Source: Malaciobacter pacificus
Lineage (GTDB): Bacteria; Campylobacterota; Campylobacteria; Campylobacterales; Arcobacteraceae
Direction of reading: 5' to 3'
Length of the DNA: 64,000 nt
Assembly (NCBI RefSeq): GCF_004214795.1
Contig: NZ_CP035928.1
Span: 186,001 to 250,000, forward strand
The translations under genes were made by a program, and so were the position numbers. Below, piece by piece: positions 10,283 through 20,213 of this stretch. Each line of letters starts with the position of its first letter. Position 1 is the stretch's first letter. The notes under the pieces are model-generated. The model was not told where the DNA came from. It made no database searches and saw nothing but the letters and a program-made list of their open reading frames with translations.

Positions 10283-11749
10283 ATGGCTAAAAATGAATTA
10301 GATGAAGTTTTAGATTTAATAGATTCAGAAATTAAAAAAAGCGGGATTTCAAGAAGAGAAGCGTTTAAATTAGCAGGTCTTGGAGCAGCAGGTATGTTAG
10401 CTGGTTCTACTAGCGCAAATGCAGCAACAACTGCAAATGCTAGTGAGGCAAAAGGTAAAATTTTAATTATTGGAGGTGGTTTAGCTGGTATCTCAACAGC
10501 TGCAAGACTTACAAGTGCACTTTCAAATCCAGATATAACGATTGTAGAACCAAGTGAAAAATCAGTTTCTTATCAGCCAGGGAATACTTTAATAGCTGCT
10601 GGAATATATGAAAAATCAGATGTAATGTATGATACAAAAGATTTTATCCCAAGTGGCGTTAAAATGATAAAAGATAAAGCTGTTGAATTTAACCCAGAAC
10701 AAAACAAAGTTGTTTTAGCTAGTGGAGAAATACTAACTTATGATTATTTAATTGTTGCAGCTGGTTTAGTTTTAGATTTTGGAAAAATTAAAGGTCTAGA
10801 AGAAGTTGGAAATGCTTACAGTGTTGGAGATGCTTCAAAGATTTTAAAAGTGTTTGGAGATTCTGGTGCAACGTCAATATATAATATTGATAGTGCAGTT
10901 GCAACTTGGGAGCAAATGCAAAAGTTTATTGAAAAAGCAAAAAATGGCCAAAAAGTAGAAGGAGTTTTTTCTCATCCAAATACTTCAATTAAATGTGGTG
11001 GGGCTCCAAAAAAGATTATGTATCTTACTAATTCAAGATTAGAAGAAGCAGGAGCAAAGGCAAATGCTAATTTAACTTTTTATCCAAATGGCTCTACTAT
11101 GTTTGGGGTAAAAGAGTATCATGATGCAATTGTAAAGCAGTTTGAGCAAAGAGGATTTAAGTGGCATTATAATCATAATTTAACGGCAGTTGACTTAGAT
11201 AAAAAAATTGCGACATTTAATAAGCATTGGAAAGAAAAAGGTGAATGGGATCCTGATTTAGAAGAGTATGATGTAGTAACTAAAAATAGTGCAGTTGAAG
11301 TACCATTTGATTTCTTACATATTACACCTCCAATGAAAGCTCCAGATGAAATTGGTAATTCTGCAATTGGTTCAGGAAAAGGATGGGTTCCTGTTAATAA
11401 AGAGACTTTACAACATGTTAAATATCCAAATATTTTCTCAATAGGTGATATTGCAGCTGTTCCAATGGGTAAAACAGGTGGAAGTGTTAGAAAACAATAT
11501 AAAGTATTAGTTGAAAATCTAGTTGCATTAATGGAAGGTAAAGAGATGAAGGCTAAATATGATGGATATACAGTATGTCCTTTAATTACTGATATTGGAA
11601 AAGTTATGTTAGCTGAGTTTAATTGGACTAAAAAGCCAACTCCTTCATTCCCACTAGACCCAGCACAAGAGAGATATATTTGGTGGTTAATGAAAGTTTA
11701 CTTATTAAAACCAATGACTCAATATGGTATGTTAAGCGGAAAAGCTTAA
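10283..11749 (+). CDS. Tat-exported type II sulfide:quinone oxidoreductase, copy 1
   Basis: Flavoprotein expected to oxidise sulfide to sulfane sulfur and pass electrons to quinone. The start is the ATG at 10283 (AAGGAT 6-8 bases upstream), giving 488 residues. A Tat signal (SRREAFKLAG, then a hydrophobic stretch ending SANA) is followed by the FAD-binding loop ILIIGGGLAGISTAAR. The redox cysteines are Cys238 in SIKCGGAPKKIMYL and Cys432 in YDGYTVCPL; these surroundings, with TPPMKAPDEI and VNKETLQHVKYPNIFSIGD, closely recall the type II (mitochondrial SQOR-like) class. The C terminus is aromatic and amphipathic, fitting membrane attachment. Export to the periplasm is read from the signal; activity is inferred from the family. 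A close paralogue is at 12109. Confidence 0.88.
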   Translation: MAKNELDEVLDLIDSEIKKSGISRREAFKLAGLGAAGMLAGSTSANAATTANASEAKGKILIIGGGLAGISTAARLTSALSNPDITIVEPSEKSVSYQPGNTLIAAGIYEKSDVMYDTKDFIPSGVKMIKDKAVEFNPEQNKVVLASGEILTYDYLIVAAGLVLDFGKIKGLEEVGNAYSVGDASKILKVFGDSGATSIYNIDSAVATWEQMQKFIEKAKNGQKVEGVFSHPNTSIKCGGAPKKIMYLTNSRLEEAGAKANANLTFYPNGSTMFGVKEYHDAIVKQFEQRGFKWHYNHNLTAVDLDKKIATFNKHWKEKGEWDPDLEEYDVVTKNSAVEVPFDFLHITPPMKAPDEIGNSAIGSGKGWVPVNKETLQHVKYPNIFSIGDIAAVPMGKTGGSVRKQYKVLVENLVALMEGKEMKAKYDGYTVCPLITDIGKVMLAEFNWTKKPTPSFPLDPAQERYIWWLMKVYLLKPMTQYGMLSGKA

Positions 11750-11760
11750 TAGGATTTTTT

Positions 11761-11979
11761 TTGAAAAAAGAGTTATTAATTTACAGTTGTATTTTTATTA
11801 TTCTTTCAATTCTAATGCATTTTGATCAATGGGTATCTTATCCTGTTGATCATATGCTAAACTTAAAAACTTCAGGAGCTTATGGCTTAGGAGTTTATCA
11901 TCCTTTTGTATTTACTTTAATCTTATATATCCTTTTTTTAGTTCCAAGAGCTATTATTAAATTATTTAAAAAATATTAA
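11761..11979 (+). CDS. Two-TM small membrane protein between the SQR genes
   Basis: 72-residue protein with two hydrophobic segments (about residues 4-20 and 46-64) joined by a loop with FDQWVSYPVDHML, ending in basic RAIIKLFKKY. The start taken is a TTG at 11761 with AGGA 8 bases upstream, 11 bases after the first SQR gene ends; the frame is open further upstream but overlaps that gene. No family recognised. Its place between two SQR genes suggests a membrane anchor or partner for the Tat-exported flavoprotein, which is inference. Confidence 0.7.
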   Translation: MKKELLIYSCIFIILSILMHFDQWVSYPVDHMLNLKTSGAYGLGVYHPFVFTLILYILFLVPRAIIKLFKKY

Positions 11980-12026
11980 ACTATATAACTAGTTACTTTT
12001 TTACAAAATATGGTGAATCCTTATTC

Positions 12027-12051
12027 AATTTTACTTGAAAATTTTACTTGA
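12027..12051 (+). repeat. 12-base tandem direct repeat before the second SQR gene
   Basis: AATTTTACTTGA occurs twice exactly, at 12027-12038 and 12040-12051, a 13-base period. The copies straddle the -35 element of the promoter at 12035-12063. Nothing like it lies before the first SQR gene. This is the layout of a transcription-factor operator. Confidence 0.7.
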
Positions 12052-12063
12052 TAGTAATATAAT
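12035..12063 (+). promoter_or_regulatory. Sigma-70 promoter of the second SQR gene
   Basis: TTGAAA at 12035-12040, a 17-base spacer, then TATAAT at 12058-12063. This is a near-consensus promoter ending 46 bases before the start codon. A clear -35 is unusual for this phylum and coincides with the direct repeat, suggesting regulated expression separate from the first SQR copy. Confidence 0.65.
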
Positions 12064-12108
12064 TGTAATATATAAATAGTATATTAATAACTTTATAAGG
12101 AGAGAGTA

Positions 12109-13557
12109 ATGAATAAAGAGTTCCTAGATGAGTTTGAGTATCAATTAAAGAAAAACAACATATCAAGAAGAGAGGCTATAAAATTACTTGGTCTTGGTGG
12201 AGCAATGTTTTTAGCTTCAAATGAAGCAACTGGAACAAAAGCAAATGCAAGTGATGTAAAAGCAAAAATTGTTATTGTTGGTGGAGGTTTAGCAGGGATT
12301 TCAACGGCAGCTAGATTAATGAATTCATTATCAAATCCTGATGTAACAGTAATAGAACCAAGCAGTGATTCTGTTTCATATCAACCTGGGAATACTTTTA
12401 TAGGTGCTGGATTATATGAGAAAAAAGATGTAATGTATAAATTAGCAGACTTTTTACCAAGTGGGGTTAAATTAATCAAAGATAAAGCAGTAGAGTTTAA
12501 TCCTGAGAATAATGAACTTACAATTTCTAGTGGAGAGAAGGTTACATATGATTACTTGATTGTAGCAGCAGGTGTTACACTAGACTTTTCTAAAATAAAA
12601 GGTTTAGAAGAGATAGGAGATGCTTATACAATTGAAAGTAAAAAAGTAATGAATGACCTATTTAAAAATAGTGGGGCAAGTACAATTTATAATATGGATG
12701 GGGCAGTTATTACTTGGGAAAATATGCAAAAATCAATAGCGGAAGCAAAAGCTGGTAAAAAAGTTAAAGCAGTATTCTCTCATCCAAATACAGCTATTAA
12801 ATGTGGTGGTGCACCAATGAAAATCATGTATCTTATGAATGAAAGATTAAATGAAGCTGGTGCTAGAGATAATGTAACAATGACTCTTTATAAAAACAGT
12901 GCAAAAATGTTTGGGGTAAAAGAGTATGAAGATGCGATAAAAGAGCAATTTAGAGTAAGAGATATGAAATGGCATACATCTCATAATCTTGAAGAAGTTA
13001 AATTAAAAGAGAAAGTTGCAGTTATAAATCATCATTGGCAAGAAAAAGGTGCATGGGATCCAGATCTTGAAGATTACGATATAGTTAGAAAAAGTGAGAA
13101 AATAGAAGTGCCATATGATTTTTTACATATTGCACCACCTATGAAAGCACCAGATGAGATAGGAAAATCTGCAATTGGTTCAGCAAAAGGATGGATACCT
13201 GTTAATAAAGAGACACTTCAACATGTAAAATATAACAATATCTTTGCTTTAGGAGATATTGCAGCTATTCCTCTTGGTAAAACAGGTGGAACAGTTAGAA
13301 AGCAGTATAAAGTATTAGTAGATAATTTAATAGCGACTATGGAAGGTAAACCTATGCCTTCTAAATTTGATGGCTATACAGTATGTCCAATTATTACAAG
13401 TATTGGTACAGTTATGTTAGCTGAGTTTGATTGGAGTATGAAGCCAACACCTTCATTTCCATTAGATCCAACAAAAGAGAGATATATCTGGTGGCTTTTA
13501 AAAGCTTATATTTTAAAGCCAATGACACAGTATGGAATGCTTTCAGGTAGAGCATAA
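12109..13557 (+). CDS. Tat-exported type II sulfide:quinone oxidoreductase, copy 2
   Basis: Paralogue of the gene at 10283, collinear over its length (482 residues) and clearly similar in most blocks. Twin-arginine signal SRREAIKLLG, FAD loop IVIVGGGLAGISTAAR, redox cysteines in AIKCGGAPMKIMYLMNE and YDGYTVCPIIT, and the same APPMKAPDEI and aromatic C terminus. AAGGAGAG precedes the ATG. It has its own promoter with a tandem repeat and is followed after 22 bases by the triple-rhodanese gene, so the two are probably one unit. Having two copies could mean different sulfide affinity or conditions; the sequence does not say which. Confidence 0.88.
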   Translation: MNKEFLDEFEYQLKKNNISRREAIKLLGLGGAMFLASNEATGTKANASDVKAKIVIVGGGLAGISTAARLMNSLSNPDVTVIEPSSDSVSYQPGNTFIGAGLYEKKDVMYKLADFLPSGVKLIKDKAVEFNPENNELTISSGEKVTYDYLIVAAGVTLDFSKIKGLEEIGDAYTIESKKVMNDLFKNSGASTIYNMDGAVITWENMQKSIAEAKAGKKVKAVFSHPNTAIKCGGAPMKIMYLMNERLNEAGARDNVTMTLYKNSAKMFGVKEYEDAIKEQFRVRDMKWHTSHNLEEVKLKEKVAVINHHWQEKGAWDPDLEDYDIVRKSEKIEVPYDFLHIAPPMKAPDEIGKSAIGSAKGWIPVNKETLQHVKYNNIFALGDIAAIPLGKTGGTVRKQYKVLVDNLIATMEGKPMPSKFDGYTVCPIITSIGTVMLAEFDWSMKPTPSFPLDPTKERYIWWLLKAYILKPMTQYGMLSGRA

Positions 13558-13579
13558 AATTTAAATAGGAGAATTAATC

Positions 13580-14776
13580 ATGAAAAGTAAATTATTATCA
13601 TCAGTTTTAGTTAGTGGGCTATTGATTGTAGGAGCAGGAAATTTATTAGCAAATGAAAATGGTAATTTAACAAAACCAAGTGAAAAAGTTCAATTATTAA
13701 TTAATAAATATCAATTAAAAATAGTTGATTATGATTATGTAAAAAATAAAATTGGAAAAGGGACAATAAATACTTCCAAGATAATTTTAATTGATGCTAG
13801 ACCAAATAAAAAATTTAAGGCAGGTACAATACCTACTTCAATAAATATCCCTGATACTGAGTATGATAAATATAAAGATCAATTAAAAGATATATCAAAA
13901 GATAAAGAATTAATAGTTTACTGTGGTGGATGGAATTGTGGTAAATCACCTAAACTTGCTAATATGTTGAAAAAAGATGGTTTTAAAAATGTAAAACTTT
14001 ATCAAGCAGGTGAACCTGAATGGAATAAAAAAGATTATTTAGAAGTTGATATCGCAGTTGTAAAATCTGCACAAGAAAAAAACTCAGCTTTATTAGTTGA
14101 TGCAAGACCATATAAAAAATATTTAAGTGAAACAATTCCTGGAGCAATTTCAATACCAGATACAGAACTAGATAAATATATTGGTAGATTTCCAAGCAAT
14201 AAAGAAGAAAAAATCATAGTTTTTTGTGGAGGATATAAGTGTGTAAAATCACATGTAGTATCGGATAAATTAATATCTTTGGGATATAAAAATGTTTCAG
14301 TATTCGCTGGTGGTGAGCCATTATGGAAAGAAAAAGGTTATGGAACAACAAAAAGCACTTCAAGTGTAAAAAAAGAAGAAACAAATACATCTAATAAATT
14401 TAGTAAAAATGGAGCAAAATTAGGTGTTGATGAAGGAAGCATTGATGGGGAGTGGTTATATGAATTTATTAAAAAAGGAGAAGTTCCTGAATTTATTCAA
14501 ATAGTTGATGTAACTGCACCAGATGAGTTTAAATCAGGGCATATTAAAGGTGCTATAAATATTCATGCTGAAAAATTAAGTGCAAAAGAGTTAGTTGCAA
14601 AATTACCAAAAGGTAAAACTATAGTATTTAATTGTACTGCTGGGGGAAGATCTATTGATGCTTGGACGAAAATCAATAATGCAAAGATGGATGTATCTGA
14701 GATATTCTATTTTGATGCAAATATAGATTGTAAAGGGAATGATTGTAAAATTGAAGTTAATGAGCCAATTGGATAA
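13580..14776 (+). CDS. Exported protein with three rhodanese domains
   Basis: 398 residues. A Sec signal peptide (SSVLVSGLLIVGAGNLLA) is followed by three rhodanese domains. Domain 1 (about 45-155) has LIDARPNKKF and the cysteine loop CGGWNCGKS; domain 2 (about 158-255) has LLVDARPYKKY and CGGYKCVKS; domain 3 (about 290-385) has IVDVTAPDEFKSGHI and a CTAGGRS loop. Domains 1 and 2 resemble each other more than domain 3 and look like an internal duplication; a Ser/Lys-rich linker separates domain 3. All three keep a loop cysteine, so persulfide transfer is plausible. Following an SQR gene, it may accept sulfane sulfur made by the SQRs in the periplasm. Confidence 0.87.
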   Translation: MKSKLLSSVLVSGLLIVGAGNLLANENGNLTKPSEKVQLLINKYQLKIVDYDYVKNKIGKGTINTSKIILIDARPNKKFKAGTIPTSINIPDTEYDKYKDQLKDISKDKELIVYCGGWNCGKSPKLANMLKKDGFKNVKLYQAGEPEWNKKDYLEVDIAVVKSAQEKNSALLVDARPYKKYLSETIPGAISIPDTELDKYIGRFPSNKEEKIIVFCGGYKCVKSHVVSDKLISLGYKNVSVFAGGEPLWKEKGYGTTKSTSSVKKEETNTSNKFSKNGAKLGVDEGSIDGEWLYEFIKKGEVPEFIQIVDVTAPDEFKSGHIKGAINIHAEKLSAKELVAKLPKGKTIVFNCTAGGRSIDAWTKINNAKMDVSEIFYFDANIDCKGNDCKIEVNEPIG

Positions 14777-14804
14777 TTAACTCTTTTTATTGAAGATAAA
14801 AAAA

Positions 14805-14833
14805 GGCTAGAAGTTTAACTTCTAGCCTTTTTT
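14805..14833. terminator. Bidirectional intrinsic terminator
   Basis: Stem GGCTAGAAGTT / AACTTCTAGCC flanked by A-runs on the left and T-runs on the right. It lies between the convergent rhodanese and rplT genes and can serve both strands. Confidence 0.9.
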
Positions 14834-18631: not shown

Positions 18632-18659
18632 TAATAAAAGAGGAAATCCTCTTTTATTA
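18632..18659. terminator. Bidirectional terminator
   Basis: Thirteen-base perfect stem TAATAAAAGAGGA / TCCTCTTTTATTA with an AA loop, between the convergent hypothetical gene and the porin gene. Its right end includes the porin stop codon. Confidence 0.9.
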
Positions 18660-20213
18660 AAATTTATATCTCATGTATGCTTTGATATCTTGGGCTTCAG
18701 TTATAGCACCTGCAGTTGTGTTAACATCTTGTGGTGTTCCTTCTGCTCCAAAGAAAGAGTTAGAACCTGTAAAGTCATAATCCATTAATACATAACTTAA
18801 TCCAAAGCTTAATGCTTTTGTTAATTGTTGGTTTCTATATACTTCCCAAGCTTGACCTCTTGTTGCAATTTTACTTCCTGCATAAGTATCTTCACCATAT
18901 GTCATAGATCTCCAGTATTTACTACCTTTATTCCATTCAAATCCAATTCTTGAATCATCTGGGCTAATAGGACAAGGTGCATTTACACCTAACCAGATAG
19001 AGTGGCCAGTTTGCGAGTCAGTTGAACCTAGCATTCCTATAGAATTAGGTCTTGTTTTTGACATAGCAAATGAAGCAAATAGTGTAGTATCATCTAAGAA
19101 GTCAGAAATTCCATCACCAATACCTTCTGTTTTAAATAAAACTGTTGCAAAATCCATATCACCAACATCATTAAATGCAGGCATTGCCATTTGAAGAGCA
19201 GCACCTATAGTATTATTTGGATTTATTATGTAGTTTTGGTAAGCCGTCATAAATGTAGAACCAGGGGCAATATCAGCTCCATTGTAGCCAATTAAATTCC
19301 AAGCTCTGGCATAATTTATATGAACAGAGTATTGACCATCATCATATGGTGCAGCGATAAATCCTAGCATATCAACATCAACATTTTTTGATTCATCTCT
19401 TGCATAATCAGTTCCATCAAATTGGAATCTAGGTTTTGCATTTGTTAAGCCTCTACCACCGCAAATTTTAAACCAAGAACCTGTTGCTCCTGTAACTTTC
19501 TCTAAATCAAATTTTGCAGAAAAACCATCAAACTCTACATCAACTACATGAGATAGAGGTGAATTGGCTTTTTGATTATTTCTGAGATTTATAGGTAGTC
19601 CATCTGTTGAAGGTCTTCTTCCAACTGAAAAAGTCCAAGGAACATTTGTTCCTAAGAAAGTATTGTTTTTATATAACCAATAAGCTTCTTTTAGTTTTAT
19701 AGTATTATCAGTTGCATTTTCATTTGTTAACCAATCAAAATTTGCATATCCTGGGTTTGTATTTGATTGTTGGTGATTAGCTGTATCACCAAAAGCTTTG
19801 TTATAAGATAATTTTCCTTTAAAAATTGTATTATCATCAGGTGAAAAAGCTGCACCTAACCATAATCTATTAGTCATTAAAGCATTATTCTTAGCATCTT
19901 TCATACCATTTCGTTTATACTGAATATTATCAACTTGTGTTCTAAAATCAATATCCCATTTAATATTATCTCCAGCACTTTGCATTTTTGCTGATCTTGC
20001 AGTTTTATCAACTAATGCTAGTTTTTTTTCGATTTTTTGAATTCTACCTTCATTTACAACAGTAGTTTTTTGTTCATTCATCTTTTTTTCTAAAGCTTCA
20101 ATTTGAGCTTTTAAAGCTTGAATTTGCTCATACATAGCAGAATTTACGTCATTTGCAAAAGTTGCTGTGCTAAGTGAAGCAAATAAAGAAAGAGTTATAA
20201 TCCCTTTTTTCAT
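18657..20213 (-). CDS. DUF3373-family outer-membrane porin
   Basis: 518-residue exported protein. Signal peptide MKKGIITLSLFASLSTATFA, then a short coiled coil (YEQIQALKAQIEALEKKMNE), then a long stretch of alternating polar/aromatic strands (for example WDIDFRTQVDNIQY, LWLGAAFSPDDNTIFKGKL) ending DIKAYMRYKF; a C-terminal Phe is typical of outer-membrane barrels. The coiled coil plus barrel and the SVGRRPSTDGLP block recall the DUF3373 family common in Campylobacterota. The substrate is unknown. It shares its strand with the cytochrome-like gene upstream, but a strong hairpin separates them. Confidence 0.82.
   Translation of the reverse strand: MKKGIITLSLFASLSTATFANDVNSAMYEQIQALKAQIEALEKKMNEQKTTVVNEGRIQKIEKKLALVDKTARSAKMQSAGDNIKWDIDFRTQVDNIQYKRNGMKDAKNNALMTNRLWLGAAFSPDDNTIFKGKLSYNKAFGDTANHQQSNTNPGYANFDWLTNENATDNTIKLKEAYWLYKNNTFLGTNVPWTFSVGRRPSTDGLPINLRNNQKANSPLSHVVDVEFDGFSAKFDLEKVTGATGSWFKICGGRGLTNAKPRFQFDGTDYARDESKNVDVDMLGFIAAPYDDGQYSVHINYARAWNLIGYNGADIAPGSTFMTAYQNYIINPNNTIGAALQMAMPAFNDVGDMDFATVLFKTEGIGDGISDFLDDTTLFASFAMSKTRPNSIGMLGSTDSQTGHSIWLGVNAPCPISPDDSRIGFEWNKGSKYWRSMTYGEDTYAGSKIATRGQAWEVYRNQQLTKALSFGLSYVLMDYDFTGSNSFFGAEGTPQDVNTTAGAITEAQDIKAYMRYKF

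Follow-up and report, generated by a model that had tools for sequence, protein, structure and literature searches.

Campylobacterota are major sulfide oxidisers, and the role of their type II sulfide:quinone oxidoreductases (SQRs) bears on extracellular sulfur formation. The closest described systems are type II SQRs of the same phylum and class, sometimes in multiple copies: Han & Perner 2015 (PMC4584964) state that, in Sulfurimonas and in the other Epsilonproteobacteria of their table, every type II SQR has a TAT motif; the available portions of that paper describe no two-transmembrane (2-TM) partner, rhodanese linkage or ancient A/B pair. Catalytic activity of bacterial type II SQR has been demonstrated (Han & Perner 2016; Shen et al. 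2016; both cited in PMC6382920), and the affinity is said to be low. A type I SQR has been reported as periplasmic in Rhodobacter capsulatus, according to the title of Schutz et al. 1999. In heterotrophs, the product of SQR is likewise passed to a rhodanese, but that pathway, as described in PMC13047784, uses glutathione persulfide and a persulfide dioxygenase, whereas the cassette described below has no dioxygenase and is predicted to be periplasmic. FccAB resembles what is predicted for the present SQRs in combining a Tat-exported FAD disulfide reductase fold with periplasmic sulfide oxidation. Sud of Wolinella succinogenes is a periplasmic polysulfide-sulfur transferase that serves as a sulfane-sulfur carrier. 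It has been named in PMC4288042 as a possible periplasmic enhancer of Psr.

The window, by which we mean the whole 64,000-nucleotide stretch analysed here, lies on a complete genome of 2.66 Mb, and its nearest named relatives are Arcobacteraceae. An earlier note on this DNA had claimed a four-gene cassette, and all four genes were confirmed as a co-directional set on the plus strand at 10283-14776, in the order SQR-a, 2-TM protein, SQR-b and triple rhodanese, with intergenic gaps of 11, 129 and 22 bases. The features are as follows.

10283-11749, plus strand: SQR-a, 488 aa, type II sulfide:quinone oxidoreductase with a Tat signal; copy A, next to the 2-TM gene; ATG start at 10283 (human SQOR match, SRREAF, C238/C432, tree clade A)
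11761-11979, plus strand: two-TM protein, 72 aa, TTG start at 11761, SQR-linked family (alignment, adjacency tallies, hydropathy)
12035-12063, plus strand: possible internal sigma-70-like promoter, TTGAAA-17-TATAAT, upstream of SQR-b (11/12 match, weak evidence)
12109-13557, plus strand: SQR-b, 482 aa, type II sulfide:quinone oxidoreductase with a Tat signal; copy B, next to the rhodanese gene (AlphaFold/Foldseek, tree clade B)
13580-14776, plus strand: triple-rhodanese protein with signal, 398 aa (three Pfam Rhodanese stretches; loops kept in 29 relatives)
14799-14833, plus strand: intrinsic terminator-like hairpin 3' of the cassette, convergent with an rplT-like gene (16-pair stem and T tract)

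Judged by its stem and T tract, the hairpin is a strong terminator-like element, and a promoter scan of the cassette region gave no excess of promoter-like sites over shuffled sequence. Elsewhere in the window, the minus strand at 18657-20213 encodes a large beta-barrel-like secreted protein of 518 aa, probably a porin.

SQR-a carries an SRREAF signal and the motifs IKCGGAP (C238) and YTVCP (C432), these being its only cysteines; SQR-b has an SRREAI signal, the same cysteine motifs and likewise only the two catalytic cysteines. Among solved structures, phmmer matched SQR-a to human SQOR (6oi6, with CoQ) at E 8.6e-79, far ahead of FccB structures (about 1e-17 to 1e-18) and type I SQRs (1e-10 to 1e-14). 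With an AlphaFold model of SQR-b (pLDDT 86, pTM 0.82), the eight best Foldseek matches were all human SQOR, 6oi6 aligning with a TM of 0.91 by target and an E of 6e-44. Human SQOR (PDB 6oi6, 6mo6) shares the fold, the two catalytic cysteines and about 34% identity in the structural alignment, but it is mitochondrial, is not exported by Tat and has no such operon partners. Both cysteines, in KC(A/G)GAP and YT.CP contexts, are invariant across the 87 distinct homologs compared (87/87), 85 of which are from Campylobacterota. A quick tree with SH-aLRT support and without bootstraps, which included human SQOR and FccB-like proteins and from which SQR types III-VI were absent, put the Campylobacterota SQRs in one group with human SQOR and the two bacterial homologs that have no Tat signal, apart from the genome's FccB-like proteins. 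On sequence and modelled fold, SQR-a and SQR-b are type II SQRs, as had been claimed from their cysteine surroundings, and are predicted to reduce quinone. The lack of a C-terminal membrane helix was considered as a feature peculiar to the Tat enzymes, but the Bacteroidetes homolog, which has no Tat signal, terminates at the same place, and the idea was dropped.

Another reading makes the exported SQRs flavocytochrome c-like sulfide dehydrogenases, whose electrons would pass to a periplasmic c-type cytochrome and not to quinone. In those relatives that have cytochrome c genes downstream of SQR, the acceptor could be cytochrome c: SQR has a CxxCH cytochrome gene as its immediate neighbour on one side or the other (clusters c1 and c3), and one Arcobacteraceae operon continues from SQR into two CxxCH proteins and a cytochrome b561/dihaem protein. 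The cassette, however, has no cytochrome gene or subunit, its SQRs carry KCGGAP and lack the CPPGPYE motif of FccB, SQOR is much the closer match, and the genome encodes FccB-like proteins separately. The latter are two further Tat-signal flavoproteins with the motif RCPPGPYER (G000 C1:827955-828992, L116, and C1:2653795-2654241, L117), the first of which matches FccB at 4e-127; these two RCPPGPYE proteins are the strongest non-SQR matches to SQR-b within the genome, and a search with SQR-b at a cut-off of E 0.1 yielded no further SQR there. Membership of SQR-a and SQR-b in the flavocytochrome c group was accordingly rejected, and electron transfer to a cytochrome appears quite improbable; the quinone-reducing reading is the one followed below. 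Beside L117 lies a gene for a lipoprotein-like product with a Ca-binding-like acidic stretch and a CxxCH haem motif.

Export of both SQRs, predicted in the earlier note, gains support from several sides. Each protein has Tat-substrate features (SRREAF or SRREAI, a hydrophobic stretch and a cleavage-like site) from which export is predicted, and TatC is encoded in the genome. A twin arginine stands ahead of the FAD motif in 85 of 85 Campylobacterota homologs, 84 of them with S/T-RR and one with NRR; the leader and RR are absent from both homologs outside the phylum (one Bacteroidetes, one cyanobacterial). A lipobox-like (A/T)TGC follows the Tat stretch in three SQR relatives, and triple rhodaneses from two other families bear clear lipoboxes (LTGC, LSGC), which fits a periplasmic, membrane-tethered location. 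What did not survive is the premise that type II SQRs elsewhere act at the inner membrane face: for Campylobacterota it is outdated, because Han & Perner 2015 (PMC4584964) had already reported the TAT motif there. A Tat-signal type II SQR in this phylum is thus published and not new. In some Sulfurovum-like type II SQRs (L057, L058 and L064, 5983-7458), the cysteine in a lipobox-like ATGC or TTGC behind the Tat stretch suggests a Tat lipoprotein SQR.

SQR-a and SQR-b are 68% identical and fall into separate, starred clades, A (SH-aLRT 96) and B (SH-aLRT 100), each with several genera. Because these clades are separate, supported and span genera, the duplication is old, and a recent tandem duplication was rejected; by their sequences, the two are old paralogs retained side by side. 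The pair is split in one genome (G035), with SQR and the 2-TM gene on one contig and SQR and the rhodanese on the other. At another locus (L153, 2072-5198), two Tat type II SQRs form a second tandem pair that is more divergent, and a divergently oriented 2-TM gene lies beside it.

The gene neighbourhood was surveyed in 104 genomes of the window's family, 85 of which have an SQR and 59 a full-length-type triple rhodanese. In 43 of these 59 the rhodanese gene begins no more than 600 bases past SQR on its strand, and in 11 the distance downstream is 5.5-7.3 kb. Of these 11, two were examined throughout (L114, and L051 by gene clusters); in both, the intervening stretch holds cytochrome c genes, the 2-TM gene and PsrABC, to which L114 adds a cytochrome b561/dihaem gene. 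In G100 the SQR and rhodanese genes are divergent and 124 bases apart. In another family (f3), the rhodanese is directly downstream of SQR in five genomes, with gaps of 70-165, and in a further one (f10) all four inspected triple-rhodanese copies end PsrABC clusters. SQR is therefore linked to both the rhodanese gene and the 2-TM gene inside and outside the window's family, so that the co-occurrence proposed for survey was found and a chance neighbourhood was rejected. That the cassette as a whole is no chance reading is supported by the strength of the human SQOR match, the invariant cysteines, the RR motif and the gene order kept in dozens of genomes.

The last gene of the cassette encodes, as anticipated, a protein with three rhodanese domains that is predicted to be secreted: it has a Sec-type N-terminus and three Pfam Rhodanese (PF00581) stretches, with a total E of 2.7e-46 and a score of 156.6 bits against a gathering cut-off of 22.2. 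Its loops read CGGWNCGKS, CGGYKCVKS and CTAGGRS, and its C-terminus is DANIDCKGNDCK. Among 29 relatives, the loop C(G/A/S)GxxCxK(S) of domains 1 and 2, with its second cysteine, is conserved, domain 3 mostly has a classical CxxxxR loop, and most share a two-cysteine motif at the C-terminus. A structure model of low confidence (pTM 0.36) retrieved the rhodanese fold and nothing beyond, and no solved structure named Sud occurred among the rhodanese sequence matches or the top fold matches. Since the protein stands beside SQR in some genomes and ends PsrABC operons in others, analogy suggests a carrier of sulfane sulfur between producer and consumer. Such a carrier would be Sud-like in being a periplasmic rhodanese-type protein that also accompanies PsrABC, but it differs from Sud in having three domains instead of one, two-cysteine loops and linkage to SQR, with no detectable match to solved Sud.

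We consider it probable that the cassette serves sulfide oxidation on the periplasmic side and feeds this Sud-like carrier, its biochemistry being predicted from the genes. In a simpler scheme, the SQRs would serve local sulfide detoxification or metal tolerance without a dedicated relay, the rhodanese would independently make thiosulfate or scavenge cyanide, and the linkage would reflect co-regulation only. According to PMC4584964, type II SQRs frequently have a low affinity and act in detoxification, assimilation or metal tolerance, and the standard CTAGGRS loop of domain 3 would suit an ordinary rhodanese activity of this kind. The linkage, however, is retained in more than one family and despite rearrangement, the genes being divergent in G100 and joined to Psr elsewhere, and the two-cysteine loop of domains 1 and 2 is conserved in the 29 relatives, which makes this scheme rather unlikely. 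Somewhat less likely still is that the rhodanese acts mainly in polysulfide reduction, in the Sud-Psr direction, and that its linkage to SQR here is what remained of an SQR-cytochrome-PsrABC-rhodanese operon after psr loss. Operons running from SQR through PsrABC to the triple rhodanese do occur in relatives, PsrABC is joined to the triple rhodanese in another family, and no PsrA ortholog was found in the window's genome (the best match was a 30% partial one); against this, the rhodanese directly follows SQR, with no psr gene between, in 43 genomes of the family and five of another, so that the short form is widespread and maintained.

The best start of the 2-TM protein is TTG at 11761, with AGGA 6 nt upstream. 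Two stretches of the protein are hydrophobic, their mean hydropathy being near 2; it has no match in Pfam or NCBIfam, and across an alignment of fifteen relatives H20 and H47-P48 are invariant. Its positively charged ends suggest cytoplasmic N- and C-termini, and the two invariant histidines, at the membrane boundary, would then lie near the periplasmic side. A convincing 2-TM gene is present in 75 of the 104 family genomes, and 68 of the 75 have a type II SQR no more than 5 kb away: in 56 genomes it is at most 143 bases downstream of SQR and in 12 more at most 1.4 kb. In all ten genomes with tandem SQRs it lies between the two, and in 11 SQR-bearing genomes of the family no 2-TM gene was detected. 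Outside the family, 50 of 82 copies lie within that distance of a type II SQR, spread over several families and both orientations; the other 32 are far from any listed SQR, partly through contig breaks. The gene also occurs alone in other lineages, notably family f7. Because some copies are far from SQR, the protein need not be an SQR subunit, and it is possibly an anchor or a binder of quinone or haem. That it is a dedicated membrane subunit of the periplasmic SQR, a haem- or quinone-binding anchor forming a membrane-bound sulfide-oxidation and persulfide-relay complex with the triple rhodanese, seems doubtful; if true, this would be an assembly not yet described. In L146-L149 and L152, a two-histidine 2-TM gene stands with no SQR nearby, and several of these copies neighbour housekeeping genes or the gene of a conserved secreted protein.

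In the module that we favour, the SQRs would fold with FAD in the cytoplasm, be exported by Tat and reside at the inner membrane on its outer face, where the 2-TM protein possibly holds or assists them. There they would oxidise H2S, passing electrons to menaquinone and releasing sulfane sulfur, which the triple rhodanese would accept as a persulfide and deliver to a consumer in the periplasm, much like Sud in Wolinella. The two paralogs would be maintained in parallel, one by the 2-TM gene and the other by the rhodanese. No description of the conserved SQR/2-TM/triple-rhodanese association or of the old paralog pair was found in the open-licence literature searched. The view that no system of this composition had been described accordingly holds for that association, which appears undescribed in the literature searched, and fails for the exported type II SQR.

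The consumer would probably be Psr where SQR-cytochrome-PsrABC-rhodanese operons occur, and in the window's genome it is likely Sox, since SoxY and neighbouring sox-like genes are present and a PsrA ortholog was not found. SoxY was found twice in this genome, and one locus (L159) contains genes resembling SoxD, SoxX, SoxY, SoxZ and SoxA, named from a reading of their sequences, and a single-rhodanese protein with a signal-like N-terminus. In another lineage (L061, L065, L074 and similar loci), a Tat SQR lies inside a SoxCD-SoxY2Z2 cluster with a small cytochrome c. That cluster also contains two conserved, unannotated genes without a Pfam match, clusters c4 and c20, which encode proteins of about 150 and 122 aa.
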